Below, one piece after another: positions 4,141 through 12,590 of a stretch of 64,000 nucleotides of DNA. The stretch is from Candidatus Kurthia intestinigallinarum. GTDB taxonomy: Bacteria > Bacillota > Bacilli > Bacillales_A > Planococcaceae. Where the stretch lies: contig NZ_JTFC01000005.1 in the NCBI RefSeq assembly GCF_003991225.1, positions 1 through 64,000 on the forward strand, in the 5' to 3' direction. The position numbers were made by a program, and so were the translations under genes. The notes beneath the pieces are model-generated. The model worked only from the letters and a program-made list of their open reading frames with translations, had not been told where the DNA came from and ran no database searches. Positions within the stretch are counted from its first letter, which is position 1, and every line of letters starts with the position of its first letter.

Positions 4141-5256
4141 TTGATTTTTTTGTATAGTTTACTTATATTTCTAATTTTTATATTCATTTTAAATAGAATT
4201 TGGGTTTATAAAACAAAATCAAATCCAGAGTATATTTATAAATTTATGAAAGAAAATAGCAATAATGAAGTAGCCATATTAGTTAAGTATAATGGGGAAA
4301 TTTTAGGGCAATGCAACGAAAATAAGATGTTACCTTTAGCCAGTGTAGCCAAAATAATAGTTGCAATTGAATTTTCGAAACAAGTGGCAGAAAGAAAATT
4401 GATTGCTAGCAATTTAATTAATATTAAAGAAATAGAAAAATATTTTATACCTAATAGCGATGGTGGCTCATATCAAGAATGGTTAAAAACGTTAGGTGAT
4501 AGGGAACAAGTGACATTATTAGAGGTTGCTCAGGGAATGATTCATTATAGTTCTAATGCTAACACTTCATATTTAATGAATATTTTAGGGATTGAGAATA
4601 CAAACAAATTATTGGGAGAATTACAGTTAAAGAAACATGAAAATATTTTCCCAGCTACAGAAGCGCTATACATACCATTAAAGTTAAATGGATATGATCA
4701 AAACTTCTCCAATATAGAATATATATTGGAGAAATTTGAAAAAATGGATTCGAATGAATACTATAGAGAATCTATCGCTTTAAATGAAGAATGGAATCGT
4801 AATCCATTATCTAAAGAACATAAAAATCAAATAATGAACAAGTTAAATTTAGATTTTCAGAGAATTTGGTCTAATCGCATGCCTAAATCGACAGCTAATG
4901 AATATATGTCTATCTTAGAAAAATTAAACAGCAAAACCTTCTTTCCGAAGGATGTTCATAATTACCTCGATAAAATCATGGAACAATTAATGTTAAACCC
5001 TCGAAATCAAGAATGGTTAAAACATGCTGGACAAAAGGGTGGTTCAACTTTGAATATTCTTAATAGCGCATTTTACGCTGAAGATATTAGAAACAATAAA
5101 TTAGAAGTAGTCTTCTTTTCAAATTGTTTAGAAGAAAAAGATGTGCTAAAAAGAAGGAAATTAGAAAAATCTCTAAACGCATTTCACATTCAACTACTAA
5201 AAAGTGAAGCATTTAGAAATTCAGTTCGAAAGAATTTGAAGTCTCTAAACCAATAA
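4141..5256 (+). CDS. Membrane-anchored serine hydrolase of the class A beta-lactamase-like fold
   Basis: An N-terminal anchor (residues 2-19, very hydrophobic) is followed by an extracytoplasmic domain with the three penicillin-recognising motifs. These are SVAK at 68-71 (nucleophile Ser68, Lys71), SSN at 137-139 (the SDN equivalent) and KGGS at 299-302 (the KTG equivalent). This suits the Beta-lactamase2/PBP-like family. The spacing between motifs 2 and 3 is longer than in true class A enzymes (about 105 in typical numbering) because of a charged helical insert (residues 190-290). Resistance is therefore not implied; a peptidase or esterase role is as likely. The start is TTG with GAGGTG 10-15 bases upstream. 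Codon use (many ATA, AGA, TTA) is more AT-rich than its neighbours, and the gene lies exactly where a DUF3298-like paralogue lost its 5' part, which suggests acquisition. Confidence 0.82.
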   Translation: MIFLYSLLIFLIFIFILNRIWVYKTKSNPEYIYKFMKENSNNEVAILVKYNGEILGQCNENKMLPLASVAKIIVAIEFSKQVAERKLIASNLINIKEIEKYFIPNSDGGSYQEWLKTLGDREQVTLLEVAQGMIHYSSNANTSYLMNILGIENTNKLLGELQLKKHENIFPATEALYIPLKLNGYDQNFSNIEYILEKFEKMDSNEYYRESIALNEEWNRNPLSKEHKNQIMNKLNLDFQRIWSNRMPKSTANEYMSILEKLNSKTFFPKDVHNYLDKIMEQLMLNPRNQEWLKHAGQKGGSTLNILNSAFYAEDIRNNKLEVVFFSNCLEEKDVLKRRKLEKSLNAFHIQLLKSEAFRNSVRKNLKSLNQ

Positions 5257-5267
5257 CATGGTTCTGT

Positions 5268-5411
5268 TGTAAAAAAATATCCTTATGCAGATGCAAGTAT
5301 AACCATTGCGAGTCACGCGTTTCAACAGGTGGAGTAAAAGTGGTATTTGATCCATATGAATTAGCTTCATTTGCAGATGGAATGAAAACCGTATCGATAA
5401 AAATTAAATAA
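5268..5411 (+). pseudogene. 3' relic of a fourth DUF3298-like paralogue
   Basis: The segment encodes VKKYPYADASITIASHAF, then in another frame STGGVKVVFDPYELASFADG and a stop. This matches the last 50 or so residues of the genes at 3210, 5552 and 6350. About 10 bases (the YFT codons) are missing after HAF and shift the frame. It has no start or signal peptide. It keeps the same terminator as the downstream paralogue. The serine hydrolase stop is only about 12 bases upstream. Confidence 0.85.
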
Positions 5412-5419
5412 CCAAAAGA

Positions 5420-5448
5420 GCCTACGCTTTTTTTCGTAGGCTTTTTTT
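5420..5448 (+). terminator. Terminator of the DUF3298-like relic
   Basis: GCCTACG/CGTAGGC stem (5420-5426 with 5435-5441) followed by a T run. It is practically identical to the terminator at 6210, as expected for a duplicated gene-plus-terminator unit. Confidence 0.9.
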
Positions 5449-5551
5449 AAAAAAGATTAATTTTTCAGAAAAATAACATATTAAACTAACAATTGGTTAC
5501 TTTTTCAGACTATAATAAAGGAAGAAGGTAACTGATAAAGGGGTGATTTCA

Positions 5552-6202
5552 ATGAAGAAGTTAGGAACGGTACTCATTATGCTATGCTTTCTCGCAATGT
5601 TACCGCTTCAAGGTTTAGGGGCAAGTGCGGCAGCACCTAAGATTTCGGTCAAGACGTATAAGACGGAGCAGATTCAATATGCAGTCATTCACGGGGATAA
5701 ATATAAAGCGGTCAATGCGAAGATGAAAAAAGAGGCAGAGGAAGCTTATGCTACACAAAAAAAGCTTGATAAGCAGATGAAGAAAGACAAAGAGGCTGGC
5801 GTGGTTTTACAGGGAACTGATTATGTGATTGGCCTAACACCTGTTATAAAATATAAAACATCAACAAATATCAGTATTTTAACACAAACGTATATTTATG
5901 ATGGTGGCGCACATGGAAATTCATATTATGAAAGTTACAATGTCTATAAAGGTAAGCTAATATCATTAAAGAAAGCCTTTAAATCGGATTCAGCCTACGT
6001 AAATGGTAAGAAATATGCGAAGCAAAAAATGCTACATAATCCAGCCAGCTATCCATTTGCGGATAATAAGTCGACAATTGCCGGTCATGCATTCTACTTC
6101 ACATCAACTGGCGGCATCAAAGTGGTATTTGATCCGTATGAGGTAGCACCGTATGTAGATGGAATGAAAACCGTATTAATTCCCAAAAAATATATTAAAT
6201 AA
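5552..6202 (+). CDS. Secreted DUF3298/RsiV-like domain protein, paralogue 2
   Basis: The ATG at 5552 is chosen because AAAGGGGTG (about 5538-5545) is its ribosome site; the GTG at 5543 lies inside that site. The signal peptide is KKLGTVLIMLCFLAMLPLQGLGASAAA. The mature domain starts with the strand EQIQYAVIHGDKYKAVNAKM, followed by a charged helix (KKLDKQMKKDKEAG). The core is GAHGNSYYESYNVYKGKLISLKKAF and the end FTSTGGIKVVFDPYEVAPYVDG. Upstream sequence, ribosome site, signal peptide and terminator are almost the same as in the next gene, so the two arose by tandem duplication of a whole transcription unit. The role is unknown; the domain is related to the ligand-sensing part of RsiV-type anti-sigma factors. 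Confidence 0.82.
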   Translation: MKKLGTVLIMLCFLAMLPLQGLGASAAAPKISVKTYKTEQIQYAVIHGDKYKAVNAKMKKEAEEAYATQKKLDKQMKKDKEAGVVLQGTDYVIGLTPVIKYKTSTNISILTQTYIYDGGAHGNSYYESYNVYKGKLISLKKAFKSDSAYVNGKKYAKQKMLHNPASYPFADNKSTIAGHAFYFTSTGGIKVVFDPYEVAPYVDGMKTVLIPKKYIK

Positions 6203-6209
6203 CAGAGAA

Positions 6210-6237
6210 GCCTACGCTTTTTTTCGTAGGCTTTTTT
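6210..6237 (+). terminator. Terminator of DUF3298-like paralogue 2
   Basis: GCCTACG/CGTAGGC stem (6210-6216 with 6225-6231) and T run. It is a copy of the terminator at 5420. Confidence 0.9.
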
Positions 6238-6349
6238 AAAACTTTAAAAGACTAAATTTTCAGAAAAAATAGTACGTTAAACTAACGGTTGATTGCTTTT
6301 TCATATTATAATAGAAGGAAGAAGGTAAACTAATAAAGGGGTGATTTCA

Positions 6350-7003
6350 ATGAAGAAGCTATGGACGGTACTCATTATGCTATGCTTTCTCGTAATGTTA
6401 CCGCTTCAAAGTCTAGGGGCAAGTGCGGTGGCACCGAAGATCTCAGTCAAGCATTATAAGACGGAGCAGATTCAATATGCAGTCATTCACGGGGATAAGT
6501 ATAAAGCGGTCAATGCGAAGATGCTAAATGAGGCGAAGGAAACGTACGCGCTACAAAAAGAATTGGATCAGCAATTGGCGCGTGATAAGGCAAATGGTAG
6601 TGTACCAGATTATATGGAATACTGGGCTGTGCTGACACCCTTTGTGAAATACAAATCATCAACGAAGGTTAGTATTTTAACGCAGCTTTATGTGTATAAT
6701 GGCGGGGCGCATGGCAACTCTTCATATGAAAGCTACAATGTTTATAAAGGAACACAGCTTTCATTAAAAGGGGCATTCAAGTCAGAAGCGGCATATTTGA
6801 AAGCAAAAAAATATGCCAAAGCAAAAATGCTAGGATATCCTGAAAAATATCCATTTGCAGATAGCACAACAACGATTGCAGGTCATCCGTATTACTGGGT
6901 AGCGTCAGGTGGCATTAAGGTCGTCTTTGCACCATATGAGGTGGCACCATATGCAGCGGGTCCGGTGACAGTATCGATTCCTGCAGCGTATATGATGAAA
7001 TAA
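6350..7003 (+). CDS. Secreted DUF3298/RsiV-like domain protein, paralogue 3
   Basis: This tandem copy of the gene at 5552 has the same AAAGGGGTG ribosome site, signal peptide (KKLWTVLIMLCFLVMLPLQSLGASA) and domain order. Differences cluster in the middle helix (ALQKELDQQLARDKANGSV) and near the end, where FTSTGG became WVASGG and DPYE became APYE. That suggests divergence of a ligand surface while the fold is kept. A clear -10 (TATAAT at 6307-6312) lies upstream. The end (YAAGPVTVSIPAAYMMK) is followed by its own, unrelated terminator. Confidence 0.82.
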   Translation: MKKLWTVLIMLCFLVMLPLQSLGASAVAPKISVKHYKTEQIQYAVIHGDKYKAVNAKMLNEAKETYALQKELDQQLARDKANGSVPDYMEYWAVLTPFVKYKSSTKVSILTQLYVYNGGAHGNSSYESYNVYKGTQLSLKGAFKSEAAYLKAKKYAKAKMLGYPEKYPFADSTTTIAGHPYYWVASGGIKVVFAPYEVAPYAAGPVTVSIPAAYMMK

Positions 7004-7009
7004 AAGGAA

Positions 7010-7039
7010 GAAGCCTGGCGAAAGCGGGCTTCTTTTTTT
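7010..7039 (+). terminator. Terminator of DUF3298-like paralogue 3
   Basis: GAAGCC...GGCTTC stem with a GCGAAAGC-type tip, followed by a T run. Confidence 0.85.
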
Positions 7040-7079
7040 GTTATAATAAAGCCATTATGTATAGATTGTAGGGAATTAG

Positions 7080-8510
7080 ATGGCTATTTATTTTGAATCA
7101 TTACAGACGTTTCAGGCGAACGGCGGCTTGAAGCAGTCAACAATTACAGCGAAGCAGCTACTACCGGCGTTAGTGACGCATATGCAACGAGGAGACCGAA
7201 AATTTTCGCTGCATATTAATGGGCGCCTGCCGAAGCCGCTTAGTGAGCTACTGCAGGATGCTTTTGACATCTCACATTTGCAGCAGCCGTTTCACACACA
7301 GCACTGCGCACGCCAGCAAAGCAAATATATAAACGTGTCAAAGAGCCGTATTAAAATTGATTTTTCGATGCATTACCGGATGTCGCGTGACGAGCATAAA
7401 TGGGTCGTTGATGAAATTGGGCGTATTTTAAAGCAATTGATTAAGGAGGATATGAGTGATGTGCAAAAGGTTGTCGCGGTACATGACTATATCGTGCGCA
7501 ATCACCAATATGAGATGAATACAACCGGCTCGCCGTTTACGGTATTTACCTTTATGCATGAGAAGCAGGGCGTTTGTATGGCGTATGCCTTACTTTTTGA
7601 AAAGATGATGGAGGAGCTTCACATTCCTTGTTATTACGTGGTCGGCAAGGCGGATGGTGAGAGTGATTTAGGGCATGCGTGGAATATGGTGCAGCTCGGC
7701 GGCGAGTGGTATCATATCGATGCGACATGGAATGATTTGGGCTCGAAGCTGAAAAATCATGAAATTCGCTATCGTTATTTTTTACGCTCGGATGAGTTTA
7801 TGAAGCGTGATCACCACTGGAATCACAATCATTACCCGCAGTGCCTGAGTGAGACGTATAAAGGCATGTCGAATTTTTATGATGTGACCTACTGTGAGGA
7901 TGCGATTTATTTTCCACATCCAACGTCGTCAAAGCTTATTAAAATGAATGTAGATACACGAAAAACAGCCGTATTAGTCGAGGGACGCGTGCAATTTTGC
8001 TCGGCATTTGAAGAGGCAATCTATTTTTGTGCGGTCGACAATGAACGTCATTTATATAAGCTAAATACGACAACAAATGAAGTTAGCTGTGTTGAAAAAC
8101 GCGAGGTCATCGCCATCAAGCGAACATTATCACAGCTTATTGTGACATTTCGTGAAGGAGAGCCACTATGCTTAGAAGGGGCCCTTCAGGAAATAACGGA
8201 GACTGTGGAGGCATATGATGTCGAGCTTGCGGGCTTTGGCAATAGCTGGTTCGGTACGTATAAGGGTAAGGCACAGGCCATTTGCTTTACAGACGGTGCA
8301 GGGCTCGAGCTACTTATTCAAGATAGCTATAAGCAAGTCGCTGTCGATATTTTATGCCATGACAAGCTACAAATTTCACTTACCGCGAATAAAAAACCAT
8401 TAAAAGCAACGAAGCCAGTAATTGTGACATTGCCAAAAGAGTTGGCCGAGCGAGTAGGGCAGGAGCGCGTAGAGATAATGGGCGATTGTGCGCTTAGATT
8501 AGAGGGATAA
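7080..8510 (+). CDS. Transglutaminase-like superfamily protein
   Basis: The central part (residues about 130-240) is a transglutaminase-like cysteine peptidase domain. It has Cys in KQGVCMAYALLFEKM, His in LGHAWNMVQLGGEWYHID and Asp in the same segment (YHIDATWND), the usual Cys-His-Asp triad. A preceding helix VVAVHDYIVRN is also typical of microbial family members. No signal peptide is evident (MAIYFESLQTFQANGG), so it is probably cytoplasmic. The N-terminal 100 residues and the C-terminal 200 residues (propeller-like strands such as DVTYCEDAIYFP and EAIYFCAVDNERHLYKL) are unassigned. GTAGGGA is the ribosome site. The gene is 12 bases upstream of the next one, which may share its transcript. 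Confidence 0.82.
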   Translation: MAIYFESLQTFQANGGLKQSTITAKQLLPALVTHMQRGDRKFSLHINGRLPKPLSELLQDAFDISHLQQPFHTQHCARQQSKYINVSKSRIKIDFSMHYRMSRDEHKWVVDEIGRILKQLIKEDMSDVQKVVAVHDYIVRNHQYEMNTTGSPFTVFTFMHEKQGVCMAYALLFEKMMEELHIPCYYVVGKADGESDLGHAWNMVQLGGEWYHIDATWNDLGSKLKNHEIRYRYFLRSDEFMKRDHHWNHNHYPQCLSETYKGMSNFYDVTYCEDAIYFPHPTSSKLIKMNVDTRKTAVLVEGRVQFCSAFEEAIYFCAVDNERHLYKLNTTTNEVSCVEKREVIAIKRTLSQLIVTFREGEPLCLEGALQEITETVEAYDVELAGFGNSWFGTYKGKAQAICFTDGAGLELLIQDSYKQVAVDILCHDKLQISLTANKKPLKATKPVIVTLPKELAERVGQERVEIMGDCALRLEG

Positions 8511-8521
8511 GGTGAAAATGA

Positions 8522-8998
8522 ATGAAAAAATTTAGAGGAAAACGACGTTACTTTCGTAATTTACAAAAGGAAGCACATATAAAGAATTATGATTTAGATT
8601 TTAGTGCGGAAAGTTGGTTTGATTTTTGGCATACGCATATCGACTTTTGTGGACATGGAAATGATGCTGTAAACATAAGAAAGCAACATGTAAAGGCTTT
8701 ATTTAATTTGTTTAATGAGGCAAATAAAGAGCTGGAAAACTGGGGAAAGCCTTATCAACTATGGATTGAACTATGTCATGAAGATGCTTCTATGGATGCG
8801 TTATTTATCCATTCGCCTAATCCAAATGCAGCTAATTTTCCGTATCAACATTCACTGAATCCGCTGAATGTAAAAGCGGAATTACCCGCTTATTTAACGG
8901 ATGTCATTAGTGTGGAACAGTATAAAATCGCAAGTTATGAAACAATTGAAGAAGATGGCAGAGTAGAGAAGCTATTTATCATTCAACTACAAAAATAG
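8522..8998 (+). CDS. Conserved Bacillales protein of unknown function (158 aa)
   Basis: This is a soluble protein with no signal peptide or membrane segment. It starts with a basic stretch (KKFRGKRRYFRNLQKEA). It is rich in Trp, His and Asp around SWFDFWHTHIDFCGHGN, has a helical middle (KQHVKALFNLFNEANKELENWG) and then the phrase LWIELCHEDASMDALFIHSPNPN. I recall similar proteins of unknown role in Bacillus genomes but cannot name a family. It follows the transglutaminase-like gene by 12 bases, with AAGGTG as a ribosome site, so the two may be co-transcribed. An immunity or accessory role would be speculation. Confidence 0.7.
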   Translation: MKKFRGKRRYFRNLQKEAHIKNYDLDFSAESWFDFWHTHIDFCGHGNDAVNIRKQHVKALFNLFNEANKELENWGKPYQLWIELCHEDASMDALFIHSPNPNAANFPYQHSLNPLNVKAELPAYLTDVISVEQYKIASYETIEEDGRVEKLFIIQLQK

Positions 8999-9040
8999 AT
9001 ACGCTTACTAAAAGATAATAGTATAAAGGAGATTTATTAG

Positions 9041-9451
9041 ATGAGTGACATTGTATGGTCATTAATTTTGTTTATAGGCGGAAGCATTTTTCTATTAAGT
9101 ATTATTATCTATATGTTTAAAAAACAACGAGGTCATAAAGATTTTCTTGTATCTATCATTATTCTCATTGTATTCTTTATCGTATGTGCGTATGGAAGTG
9201 TTCTAGCTGTCCAACAAGCATTTGACAATAAGAATAGATCGGTAGCTTCTGGAAAATGTACGATTTTAATTTTGGAAGATATAGGAGGACGATTTGGCTC
9301 TTACAGTCTCATTGATGTTGAAGTAAACGATGTATCCTTAAGCACAAATTTAGAAAACTTTCCAACGATAAAAGAAGGAACGTATCGTTGTAAAGTAGCG
9401 TATTCTAAACATACAGATAAAATTTTCGATTTGGAGATTTTAGAGGATTAA
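9041..9451 (+). CDS. Small two-helix membrane protein of unknown function
   Basis: Two hydrophobic segments (residues about 4-25, SLILFIGGSIFLLSIIIYMF, and 36-57, LVSIIILIVFFIVCAYGSVL) are joined by a short basic loop. An extracytoplasmic or cytoplasmic beta-rich tail of about 75 residues follows (CTILILEDIGGRFGSYSLIDVEV). AAAGGAG precedes the ATG at 8-9 bases. There is no family match that I can name. It is a single gene with a strong terminator. Confidence 0.7.
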   Translation: MSDIVWSLILFIGGSIFLLSIIIYMFKKQRGHKDFLVSIIILIVFFIVCAYGSVLAVQQAFDNKNRSVASGKCTILILEDIGGRFGSYSLIDVEVNDVSLSTNLENFPTIKEGTYRCKVAYSKHTDKIFDLEILED

Positions 9452-9462
9452 AAAACTGCTTG

Positions 9463-9493
9463 AAGCATGCGAATAAAAATGCATGCTTTTTTT
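9463..9493 (+). terminator. Rho-independent terminator
   Basis: AAGCATGC/GCATGCTT stem (9463-9470 with 9481-9488) and T run. Confidence 0.9.
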
Positions 9494-9526
9494 GATATAA
9501 TAAGTAAAAAATGGAGGGGTTAGACA

Positions 9527-11146
9527 ATGGGCTCGTTAGAAATCGTATCGATGGATTTTAAAAATGATGCATTAAATCGCATTAGCCAGCAAGAATCTTA
9601 TTTGAATTATCCTGTTATTTATTTGCTTAATAATGATAAGGAAGCTTACATCGGGGAAACGATTTATTTTAAAAAAAGAATGAAGGCGCATTTGAAAAAT
9701 AAGGCGCGTAAAAATTTAACACAAATCAATCTCATTCAGCATGAACGATTTAACCGCTCCGCAACATTTCATCTCGAAACGAAATTGATCAATTACTTTT
9801 TAGGAGATGAAAAATATTTATTACAAAATAAAAGTAAAACAGTAAGCCATGTGACACATAATTACTACGAAAAATCTTTTTATGATGAAGAAGTCTTTCA
9901 AGAGCTATGGCAACAATTGCGACAAAAAAAGCTTGTGCAGCATTCACTGCATGCAATCGAAAATAAAGATATTTTTAAGCTGTCGCCATTTAAAGAACTT
10001 TCTCGTGAACAGCTTGATTTAAAAGAGGAGGTACTCGAATTTTGTGAAAATCACATCCAGGATGAAAGCAGTTTGTTAATTATTGAAGGAGAAGCGGGCG
10101 TTGGAAAAAGTGTCGTACTGAGCTCGATTTTTAACACCTTACAAGAGTATGCACTAGAAGAGGGGGCGCTTAAGAAAACAACTAACTATTTGGTCGTCAA
10201 TCATGAGGAAATGCTCAAGACCTATAAAGGAATTGCTAAAAATGTGAAGCATCTAAAGGCTAAAAATATTGAAAAACCAACACCGCTTATTAACCGTCTT
10301 CAAAAAAATGATGAGCGTGCAGATATTATTTTAGTGGATGAGGCGCATTTATTATTAACACGCAAAGATACATATAATAATTTTTATGGAAATAATCAAT
10401 TAGAAGAATTAATGAAACTGGCAAAGATTGTGATTATTGTTTATGACCAAAATCAAGTATTGAAATTGAAGAGCCTATGGGAAGCTGCTAAACTGGAAAC
10501 CTTAAAGCAGACGGCAAAAACGTGTAAAGTTTACCCGTTAACGAATCAATTTCGTATGCAAGCCAATGATCAAATAATTAAATGGATTGATGCTTTTAAA
10601 GATAAGAAGCTACTGCCCATACCTGTAGATGAAAAATATGAGGTGGCCTGTTTTGATAGCTTGCAGCAGCTTCATCAAGCAATTGAAGAGAAAAATAAGG
10701 ACGTAGGATTAAGCCGCGTTGTTGCCACATTTGATTTTCTACATAAGAAAGACAATAAAACCTATTATGTAACGGAATCTAAAGGGGACTATCAAATGCC
10801 CTGGAATACAACTGCAAGTTCTACAACATGGGCAGAACGTCAGGAAACGATCCAAGAGGCGGGCTCTATTTATACGATTCAGGGATTTGATTTGAATTAT
10901 GTCGGGGTTGTGCTTGGGCCATCTATTCAGTATGATGCAGCGAATGATTGCTTGAGAATTGATACAACAAAATATAAAGATACAGGTGCTTATGCAGGGA
11001 CAGAAGGAATCGAAAATGTTGAGTTTGCGAAGGAACGAATCATTTTAAATTCACTCAATATTTTAATGAAACGCGGCGTTCATGGCCTCTATATTTATGC
11101 GTATGATGAAGCATTACGCGAGCGTTTAAAGGAGCTGAAAGCATGA
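9527..11146 (+). CDS. GIY-YIG nuclease domain fused to a DUF2075 (Schlafen-like/SF1) ATPase
   Basis: Residues about 28-110 form a GIY-YIG-type domain (VIYLL at 30-34, YIGET at 41-45, Arg51, candidate Glu in HLETKLI). Residues about 150-539 are a DUF2075 P-loop helicase-like ATPase. It has Walker A GEAGVGKS (188-195), Walker B IILVDEAH (267-274), a QFRMQ motif and the late motif YTIQGFDLNYVGVVLG typical of that family. The 539-aa length is in the usual range for this fusion. The MazG-like gene begins inside its last codons (ATGA overlap), so translation is coupled. GIY-YIG-DUF2075 proteins occur sporadically in accessory regions. A defence or nucleic-acid-processing role is inference; the domains themselves are clear. 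Confidence 0.85.
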   Translation: MGSLEIVSMDFKNDALNRISQQESYLNYPVIYLLNNDKEAYIGETIYFKKRMKAHLKNKARKNLTQINLIQHERFNRSATFHLETKLINYFLGDEKYLLQNKSKTVSHVTHNYYEKSFYDEEVFQELWQQLRQKKLVQHSLHAIENKDIFKLSPFKELSREQLDLKEEVLEFCENHIQDESSLLIIEGEAGVGKSVVLSSIFNTLQEYALEEGALKKTTNYLVVNHEEMLKTYKGIAKNVKHLKAKNIEKPTPLINRLQKNDERADIILVDEAHLLLTRKDTYNNFYGNNQLEELMKLAKIVIIVYDQNQVLKLKSLWEAAKLETLKQTAKTCKVYPLTNQFRMQANDQIIKWIDAFKDKKLLPIPVDEKYEVACFDSLQQLHQAIEEKNKDVGLSRVVATFDFLHKKDNKTYYVTESKGDYQMPWNTTASSTTWAERQETIQEAGSIYTIQGFDLNYVGVVLGPSIQYDAANDCLRIDTTKYKDTGAYAGTEGIENVEFAKERIILNSLNILMKRGVHGLYIYAYDEALRERLKELKA

Positions 11147-11478
11147 CAATTGAAGAACTACAAAAACAGGTGATAGCGTTTCGGGATGAGCGAAACTGGA
11201 AACAATTCCACAATCCAAAAGATGTTGCGCTATCATTGTCACTAGAGGCAAGTGAATTACTTGAAAATTTCCAATGGAAAACGAGTGATGAAGCATTAAC
11301 TATTAATAAAGAGAACATCAAAGACGAGCTAGCAGATGTTGTAATTTATGCATTATTATTTGCGGATGAGGCACAGATTGATTTAGCAAAAGCTGTTCAA
11401 CAAAAAATTAAAAAGAATGCCTTAAAATATCCAGTTGAAAAGGCAAAGGGAAATAAATCGAAATATACGGAGCTATAA
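11143..11478 (+). CDS. MazG-like (RS21-C6/dCTPase type) nucleotide pyrophosphohydrolase
   Basis: This 111-aa all-alpha NTP pyrophosphohydrolase would hydrolyse (d)NTPs to NMP and pyrophosphate. The metal-binding motifs are present: E-A-S-E in SLSLEASELLENFQWK (ExxE) and E-L-A-D in IKDELADVVIYALLFAD (ExxD). A Lys/Asn-rich end (KKNALKYPVEKAKGNKSKY) is typical of the subfamily. It overlaps the DUF2075 gene by 4 bases and shares its transcript. The exact substrate cannot be read from the sequence. In this context it might remove modified or signalling nucleotides, which is an inference from the tight coupling. Confidence 0.88.
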   Translation: MTIEELQKQVIAFRDERNWKQFHNPKDVALSLSLEASELLENFQWKTSDEALTINKENIKDELADVVIYALLFADEAQIDLAKAVQQKIKKNALKYPVEKAKGNKSKYTEL

Positions 11479-11482
11479 AATA

Positions 11483-11520
11483 AAAAAAGGGCGGTACCCA
11501 TACAGGTACTGTCCTTTTTT
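11483..11520. terminator. Bidirectional terminator between the MazG-like gene and the M24 peptidase gene
   Basis: An imperfect stem AAAAAAGGGCGGTACC/GGTACTGTCCTTTTTT lies between convergent genes and gives a T run on both strands. Confidence 0.8.
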
Positions 11521-11525
11521 CACTG

Positions 11526-12590
11526 CTATAGCACAATCAATTCTTTTGGTGAATGAGTAATAACCTCTGCGCCGTCCTTTGTCATAATGACGTCATCCTC
11601 GATACGCACGCCACCAAGTCCAGGGATATAAATACCAGGCTCCATTGTAAGCACCATATTTTCTCTCACTGGTGTAGCAACACCTTGTGCTAAGAAAATG
11701 TCCTCATGAATATCAAGGCCAATGCCATGGCCTGCACCATGACCGTATTGTGCGCCGTAGCCTTGTGCGGTAATGTAATCGCGTGATAGGCTATCGACCT
11801 CTTGTGCGGTCATGCCGATTTTCATTTCCTTCAGTGATAATTCCTGTGCTGCTAAGACAATATCATAAATTTTTCGTAGCTCAGCAGGCGGCTCTCCAAC
11901 AGCAATCGTGCGCGTCATATCCGAGCGATAGCCCTTATAATAAGCACCGAAATCTAGTGTCAGCATATCACCTGTTTCAATTTTTTTCTCTGTCGGTGCA
12001 CCATGTGGTAGGGCAGAGCGCGTACCTGAGGCAACAATCATATCAAATGATGCGCCATCTGCACCATTTTTACGCATATGTGATTCAAGCTCAAAAGCAA
12101 TTTCACGTTCTGTCACGCCAGGCTTAATAAACGTCAAAATATGCGTGAATGCCTCATCTGAAATCCATGCAGCTTTCTTAATTAATTCGATTTCATCAGG
12201 TGTTTTCGTTAGGCGTATTGCTTCAACAAGCAGTGACATCGGCTGTAATGTAGCCTTAATATTTGCTGTTAGCATACGATATGTAGCGAATGAGACATGC
12301 TGTTCTTCAAAGGCAAGTGTTGTAATATTTTGCTCTTTCAGCGAGGCATTAATAACATCATATACGTGTCTCGGGTTAATTTCTTGCACTGTAAAATCAG
12401 GGCATTGTGCTGTGGCTTGCTCTGTGTAACGGAAGTCCACGAATAATTTGGCCTCAGTTTGTGTGACGAGAACCGCGCCCTCACTTCCTGTAAAATTTGT
12501 TAAGTAGCGGCGGTTTTGATCGCTCATTACGATGAAAGCCTCAACATCTTGCTGTTTTAAGATGAGACGTAGCTTTTCTAAAATAGTCAT
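11526..12590 (-). CDS. M24B family Xaa-Pro peptidase (aminopeptidase P/prolidase-like)
   Basis: This is a cytoplasmic metallopeptidase that removes residues next to proline. The N-terminal creatinase-like domain (ILKQQDVEAFIVMSDQNRRYLTNFTGS) is followed by the pita-bread domain. Five metal ligands are visible in order: Asp in LTLDFGAY, Asp in YRSDMTRT, His in HGIGLDIHE, Glu in TMEPGIY and Glu in VRIEDDV. The length of 354 aa is normal (B. subtilis YqhT type). The start is the ATG at 12590 because GGAGGAATT lies 4-12 bases upstream; a longer frame to 12641 has no ribosome site. It is a single gene facing the MazG-like gene. Confidence 0.92.
   Translation of the reverse strand: MTILEKLRLILKQQDVEAFIVMSDQNRRYLTNFTGSEGAVLVTQTEAKLFVDFRYTEQATAQCPDFTVQEINPRHVYDVINASLKEQNITTLAFEEQHVSFATYRMLTANIKATLQPMSLLVEAIRLTKTPDEIELIKKAAWISDEAFTHILTFIKPGVTEREIAFELESHMRKNGADGASFDMIVASGTRSALPHGAPTEKKIETGDMLTLDFGAYYKGYRSDMTRTIAVGEPPAELRKIYDIVLAAQELSLKEMKIGMTAQEVDSLSRDYITAQGYGAQYGHGAGHGIGLDIHEDIFLAQGVATPVRENMVLTMEPGIYIPGLGGVRIEDDVIMTKDGAEVITHSPKELIVL

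Follow-up and report, generated by a model that had tools for sequence, protein, structure and literature searches.

Among characterised nuclease-helicases the nearest is Nhi (SERP2475) of Staphylococcus epidermidis, which is known as a one-gene system. In the accessible portions of the reports, its product detects phage single-stranded DNA-binding protein (SSB), nicks and unwinds DNA (PMC12904381), and depends on phage SSB for its activity (PMC12904381, PMC10732053). It reportedly protects without abortive infection, and both Nhi and AbiO are recorded on plasmids in complete genomes of the Bacillus cereus group (PMC11811056, as far as its available text goes). Nucleases of the GIY-YIG family also serve antiphage defence, as described in the accessible parts of the reports on CMoRE/PD-T4-3 (PMC12923530) and SNIPE (PMC13190303). 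Here we describe a two-gene locus of Candidatus Kurthia intestinigallinarum (contig NZ_JTFC01000005.1), located at positions 9527–11478 of a stretch of 64,000 nucleotides that we call the window, in which a helicase family is linked with a predicted pyrophosphohydrolase for deoxycytidine triphosphate (dCTP). With somewhat more confidence than doubt, we read the pair as a two-gene antiphage module that would combine an Nhi-like nuclease-helicase with a deoxynucleoside triphosphate (dNTP) pyrophosphohydrolase acting as its helper.

Architecture of the gene pair

The two genes and their parts are:

9527–11146, + strand: fusion gene for a GIY-YIG domain and a Schlafen-group-3 (SLFN-g3) superfamily 1 (SF1) helicase, 539 amino acids (open reading frame and Pfam)
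9617–9775, + strand: GIY-YIG catalytic domain (PF01541), amino acids 31–83, with the catalytic Glu84 immediately after it (Pfam)
10070–11107, + strand: SLFN-g3_helicase domain (PF09848), amino acids 182–527 (Pfam, E 4.9e-98)
11143–11146, + strand: ATGA, the 4-nucleotide stop/start overlap of the two genes (sequence)
11143–11478, + strand: gene for a MazG-like pyrophosphohydrolase of the dCTPase (DCTPP1/RS21-C6) kind, 111 amino acids (Pfam and solved-structure matches)

The first-pass annotation, made from the letters of the window, had described a GIY-YIG-DUF2075 gene that overlaps a MazG-like gene by 4 nucleotides, with a terminator behind and all key motifs visible. The open reading frames, the Pfam matches and a hairpin at 11483–11520 agree with this layout, and the motifs are indeed in place. 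DUF2075 is the former name of PF09848, now called SLFN-g3_helicase in Pfam. The ATGA overlap suggests translational coupling of the two genes, and other paired loci repeat the −4 overlap.

The helicase domain is matched across profile positions 2–354 of 354 with 329 bits (cut-off 24), and the GIY-YIG match is marginal (22.7 bits, cut-off 22.6). Residues of the GIY-YIG motif are intact (Y32, Y41-I-G43, R51, H55 and E84), and the helicase motifs read GEAGVGKS (Walker A, amino acids 188–195, K194), VDEAH (270–274, D271 and E272), NQFRM (340–344) and QGFDLNYVG (452–460). We aligned 64 non-redundant, full-length proteins of the GIY-YIG type, the window protein included and fragments and decayed copies excluded. 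In all 64, Y32, Y41, G43, R51, H55 and E84 of the nuclease are identical, as are K194, D271, E272, H274, Q341, R343, Q452 and D455 of the helicase.

A structure model of the protein, built with 11 sequences (mean predicted local distance difference test score 73, residues 407–453 below 50), was used for its helicase resemblance only. The modelled helicase half resembles UvrD/Rep helicases (Z 14.3–15.6; 4c30, Z 15.6, 307 residues, root-mean-square deviation (rmsd) 5.0) and human Schlafens (9uie, SLFN14, Z 14.4, 275 residues; 7zep, SLFN11, Z 14.3, 270 residues; rmsd 4.4–4.7). Gabija GajB is also among the matches (8tk1, Z 12.9 across 153 residues). No GIY-YIG chain was found among the 50 listed matches, which are filled by helicases and barely probe residues 1–141, so that this absence excludes nothing.

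The second protein matches PF12643 (MazG-like, E 6.9e-21, 74.7 bits against a cut-off of 27) and PF03819 (MazG, 25.4 bits against 22). Among solved structures its closest matches are 4qgp, a pyrophosphatase (E 9.8e-22), and dCTP pyrophosphatase 1 (6sqw and 2a3q, E 1.7e-18). Its metal-binding ExxE...ExxD motif, E35/E38...E62/D65, is intact, and these four residues together with W19, W45 and Y69 are identical in 22/22 MazGs encoded beside GIY-YIG helicases. The catalytic residues are the same as in mammalian DCTPP1 (RS21-C6), whereas the KYTDL-like C-terminal tail of the latter is absent from 18 of the 22 paired homologues. Unlike DCTPP1 and 4qgp, the window MazG is encoded together with a nuclease-helicase. 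We infer that it is a dCTP-type pyrophosphohydrolase.

MazG-like genes also overlap genes for HNH-type endonucleases on a Nocardiopsis plasmid (L216, 7001–8361) and in a Vibrio phage (L218, 3071–4214); such MazGs may therefore serve other nucleases too.

Relation to described systems

The PADLOC model for Nhi matches divergent members of the family over the helicase (L165, E 3.5e-12; L162, E 1.6e-9, the GIY-YIG score of L162 being below the Pfam cut-off). The AbiO model matches L165 (E 4.3e-10), L162 (2.9e-7) and L178 (5.8e-17), the last a helicase of a second version that is described below; the Nhi/AbiO models also match second-version L161 and L178. Like Nhi, the window protein has a nuclease and a helicase in a single chain. 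Nhi, however, is one gene with no MazG named, whereas the window module has a MazG partner. The available part of PMC10952713 gives NERD as the nuclease of Nhi-like proteins, and Pfam finds GIY-YIG but no NERD in the window protein. By analogy, the window protein probably works like an Nhi-type protein, though it is not filed as Nhi. The likeness to AbiO lies in the helicase region common to AbiO and divergent relatives of the window protein; we know of no MazG partner of AbiO.

Two candidate systems in PADLOC touch the family in part. Models of PDC-S14 align with the window protein in its N-terminal GIY-YIG region (E 1.5e-8, within residues 6–121, the helicase lying outside), the best of them across 40–124 of its 305 positions only. 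PDC-S41 matches the second version (L178, E 3.2e-17) and gives no match to the window protein. The accessible text on CMoRE describes a GIYxY-YIG motif, whereas the window protein reads YPVIYLL...AYIG, with no Tyr two residues before Y32; the main text of that report, in its available portion, never mentions a helicase, which the window protein has (PMC12923530). SNIPE is described, in the part of its report at hand, with DUF4041 and a membrane segment, and no DUF4041 was found in the window protein (Pfam, E≤0.1). In human SLFN11 and SLFN14 the helicase half is alike, but the Schlafen core nuclease domain is absent from the Pfam matches of the window protein, where the nuclease is GIY-YIG. The Tlr8 proteins of ciliate Tlr elements, as presented in the accessible part of PMC1564403, carry a putative SF1 helicase and GIY-YIG in one protein. 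They belong to a eukaryotic mobile element and have GIY-YIG at the C-terminus, unlike the N-terminal domain of the window protein; the likeness is one of domain make-up.

In the literature that was covered, which left out most subscription journals and bioRxiv, nothing was found that joins DUF2075 with MazG, GIY-YIG with DUF2075, or prokaryotic Schlafens with GIY-YIG and anti-phage activity. The first-pass annotation had put the locus forward as a candidate new system. This is too strong for the helicase, among whose relatives are Nhi/AbiO-like nuclease-helicases; what stands is the partnership with MazG, which seems to be undescribed.

Co-conservation and distribution

We searched a class-level sample of 398 genomes with a helicase threshold of E≤1e-45, a sample of 261 genomes of the window's family (E≤1e-60, a few matches being fragments) and a phylum-level sample of 398 genomes (E≤1e-35). 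The helicase was present in 42 genomes of the class sample, and in 32 of these a MazG gene on the same strand is no more than 101 bp away, downstream in 29 and upstream in three that all come from a single genus. Adjacency was found in 30/34 helicase-bearing genomes outside the window's family against 2/8 inside it. This count used MazG rows down to E 2.3e-30 plus 10 family MazG rows, and the rows omitted, by eye, were from genomes without a helicase match, on other contigs or far away. Five genomes of the phylum sample have the helicase, two of them already known from the other samples; in all three genomes outside the class (L283–L285) a MazG adjoins it, the helicase gene preceding in two and the MazG gene in one. 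The two genes are thus conserved together, as the first-pass annotation had required of a genuine module, and they occur in both orders.

Locus L283 also has a second small MazG/HisE-like gene (834–1133; family named by eye) a short way beyond its helicase–MazG pair.

Nor is the pair core, another expectation that held: the helicase occurs in 52/261 genomes of the family and 3/8 of the genus, besides the 42/398 of the class. The genes are accessory and patchily distributed. Plasmid copies of the helicase amount to 19 records, nine of which cover at least 80%, with an adjacent MazG in two of seven inspected. Four records in the phage collection match the helicase, three being unverified 'Bacteriophage sp.' contigs and the fourth Microcystis phage Mwe-JY31. 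Fusions of the MazG and helicase genes were not noticed, though no systematic search for them was made.

Among the 64 aligned members, a set weighted towards the window's own family, MazG is downstream in 32, upstream in one, divergent in one and missing in 30. On a quick tree of these members, with long branches flagged, the paired/solo label changes eight times against a mean of 21.5 for shuffled labels, and paired members are found on all deep branches. Taken with the broader samples, this suggests that the pairing is old and that MazG was lost repeatedly, chiefly in the window's family. Across 33 pairs, the distances between the helicases correlate with those between their MazGs (r 0.74, not reached in any of 2000 permutations), which shows common inheritance, not contact.

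MazG beside a second helicase version

Similar MazGs also accompany helicases of another kind. These second-version proteins, of about 620–650 amino acids, share only the SLFN-g3 part with the window protein (25–28% identity), and the MazGs beside them are 52–62% identical to the window's MazG. Their N-terminus, where Pfam names no domain, reads RVDF...VELKQW, presumably a PD-(D/E)XK nuclease motif. Loci of this version are usually MazG-first (L161, L166, L167, L170, L173 and L174), and L178 is helicase-first; the MazG frame is interrupted in L166 and the helicase is split in L174. The arrangement is also present in Microcystis phage Mwe-JY31 (L212, 6001–8198) and on a Priestia plasmid.

Defence-gene neighbourhoods

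Some copies of the pair lie amid defence genes. A scan of 10 hand-picked large neighbours gave matches to Wadjet, Bunzi and Septu-like genes. In L139 (2679–9831) Wadjet JetC/JetD are directly upstream, with a 4-nucleotide overlap between jetD and the called start of the helicase gene; in L151 Bunzi BnzA/BnzB come next after MazG; and in L165 PDC-M62/Septu-like genes stand one gene beyond MazG. Both helicase types, one MazG, a gene of 191 amino acids and Septu-like PtuA/PtuB form one same-strand run in the latter locus (5222–12461).

A second scan (PADLOC, E≤1e-15) took in 101 genes around ten of 13 paired loci, L139 and L151 having been scanned before and L146 being a short contig. It found two Thoeris genes (one ThsA, one ThsB) and, in L140, a type IV restriction enzyme, as well as matches to PD-T4-2_B, LmuA, PDC-S25, mad2 and mad3, where several models may concern one gene. 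The control, 117 whole genes of ten arbitrary regions, gave only mad3, mad8, GlgB-like and nucleosidase-like matches, with no Thoeris or type IV restriction. Cas6 and Cas10 follow a MazG-less plasmid copy of the helicase, and type I restriction-modification (RM) genes adjoin other copies.

Counts with one panel of 21 queries, drawn from loci already seen with defence-like neighbours, gave matches near 10/39 paired, 2/21 solo and 1/30 arbitrary loci, four of the ten paired matches being source loci; without these, the figures were 6/35 paired against 1/30 arbitrary (p 0.11). Enzymes similar to SauUSI, a type IV restriction enzyme, are near 6/39 paired loci (L230 by a weak match) against 1/51 solo and arbitrary loci (p 0.04), or 5/38 against 1/51 without the source locus (p 0.08). 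On a Lactiplantibacillus plantarum plasmid (NZ_CP028230.1; L207, 1315–6710) a NUDIX hydrolase, a PLD-DEAD (SauUSI-like) helicase, MazG and a GIY-YIG-SLFN helicase stand in a row, the MazG and the last helicase being only 32–33% identical to those of the window; parts of this four-gene set recur in L242, L237 and L210. DUF3578, presumably a McrB-N-like domain, is found directly before a second-version MazG-helicase pair and before a GIY-YIG-type helicase.

Proposed function and alternatives

Judged by the families of the two proteins, the pair would cut DNA, translocate along it, hydrolyse dCTP and serve in defence. The Schlafen-type SF1 helicase half, if it behaves as in Nhi, would load on DNA indicative of foreign replication or repair intermediates; ATP-driven movement would bring the GIY-YIG nuclease, whose motifs are intact, to cut DNA. 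MazG, whose synthesis the gene overlap would couple to that of the helicase, would turn dNTP into the monophosphate (dNMP), likely with dCTP or 5-modified dCTP as substrate if DCTPP1 is a guide. As a helper it might starve phage replication, clean the pool of modified nucleotides or protect the host; the trigger of the module and the manner in which MazG helps are matters of speculation. Helicase and MazG are linked across the phylum as sampled, in either gene order and with two kinds of N-terminal domain. This suggests that control of the nucleotide pool belongs to the way in which these nucleases act or are kept safe. For annotators, the adjacency provides a simple rule to find more such modules.

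Several observations weigh against a defence module. The window helicase has no Nhi match at E≤1, and its locus none at E≤10 in its own genome, nor has it an AbiO match at E≤1. Within the family a MazG is adjacent in 8 of the 52 helicase genomes, with none adjoining in 44, and the 30 solo helicases of the alignment retain every catalytic residue. MazG therefore looks dispensable, and its repeated loss suggests a role that is helpful without being essential. The helicase is lost as well: at the site of the Exiguobacterium group L175 has kept MazG with the helicase gone, and in L176, whose downstream genes are common with that site, an intact MazG lies beside a helicase remnant of 87 amino acids. 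Seven of eight named Exiguobacterium loci have the same two genes upstream, so these loci are not independent. As for neighbourhoods, the arbitrary region L184 holds a SauUSI-like gene, which is not among the 117 control genes because it is cut by the region edge. Among 94 genes around unpaired MazGs there are likewise matches to MTase_II, type IV restriction, ZorD-like and further models, and a defence-type reverse transcriptase is among 55 genes around solo helicases. The window pair itself has ordinary neighbours, with no recognisable defence genes. Enrichment near defence genes, which the first-pass annotation had brought up, is only suggestive and statistically weak (p 0.04–0.11): some copies do lie amid such genes, the window copy not among them. 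Its more general proposal of an antiphage-type module is partly supported, helped by the divergent relatives that match the Nhi/AbiO models and held back by the own-family genomes without adjacent MazG.

The foremost alternative, which we think improbable though worth serious attention, is host genome maintenance: a UvrD/UvrC-like helicase-nuclease would act on damaged or stalled DNA while MazG cleared faulty dCTP derivatives, phages being incidental. The UvrD/Rep-like fold of the modelled helicase half (Z 14.3–15.6) fits this, as do the presence of GIY-YIG in repair enzymes such as UvrC (noted in the accessible part of PMC1564403), the stable position of the locus at one chromosomal site in Exiguobacterium and a NUDIX/MutT-type gene close by in some loci. 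The patchy occurrence of the helicase (52/261 in the family, 3/8 in the genus), its plasmid copies, the placement of some copies within Wadjet, Septu-like, Bunzi, CRISPR and RM neighbourhoods, and the relatives in antiphage families argue against it.

Somewhat more doubtful is a defence centred on modified cytosine. DCTPP1 acts on 5-modified dCTP; MazG could destroy such nucleotides, which may come from degraded modified phage DNA or from phage synthesis, and so keep host DNA unmarked while partner nuclease-helicases attack marked DNA. These partners would carry either GIY-YIG or PD-(D/E)XK, and in some loci they have a type IV enzyme resembling SauUSI, a NUDIX hydrolase or the McrB-N-like DUF3578 close by. 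The DCTPP1-like MazG, the SauUSI-like neighbours, the four-gene row of L207 and the DUF3578 neighbours speak for this role. If true, the module would be a restriction system that guards itself via the nucleotide pool and not by methylation.

We give little credence to a toxin–antitoxin-like pair, in which MazG would restrain a toxic nuclease-helicase, or the reverse. The overlapping two-gene layout and the patchy distribution would suit it, but the helicase does without an adjacent MazG in 44/52 own-family genomes, 30 aligned solo members have intact active sites, MazG outlives the helicase (the remnant in L176, the loss in L175) and is, by its sequence, a well-formed enzyme. Chance adjacency of unrelated genes, for which the 8/52 of the own family might speak, is scarcely credible because pairing is found in 32/42 class genomes, 30/34 outside the family and 3/3 outside the class, in both gene orders and with similar MazGs beside a second helicase type.

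Flanks of the pair in the window

Three further features bound the two-gene module or precede it:

9462–9489, + strand: terminator-like hairpin after the preceding gene, the upstream bound of the pair (terminator scan)
9513–9519, + strand: GGAGGGG, ribosome-binding-like, 5' of the helicase gene (read in the sequence)
11483–11520, + strand: terminator hairpin 3' of the pair, perhaps bidirectional (folding; the terminator scan lists it on the − strand only)

The downstream hairpin folds at −22.2 kcal/mol (z −6.5), and none of 200 shuffles was equally low; in the scanned stretch three terminator-like sites were seen against 1.3 expected. No sigma-70-like promoter was listed between the hairpin at 9462–9489 and the helicase gene. 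In base composition the pair is ordinary relative to the rest of the window, and no match indicating a phage origin came from a pattern-based scan for viral contigs, whose reach is limited to close relatives. A flanking aminopeptidase-like gene has homologues in six of seven other members of the genus and none in G004, and a second copy in its own genome is 48% identical. Because the homologues in the genus are only 47–50% identical, no empty site could be aligned at the window, and insertion as a mobile island is not demonstrable.

Elsewhere in the window, 5543–6202 and 6341–7003 encode adjacent, closely similar secreted-looking proteins of 219 and 220 amino acids, which look like a tandem duplication.

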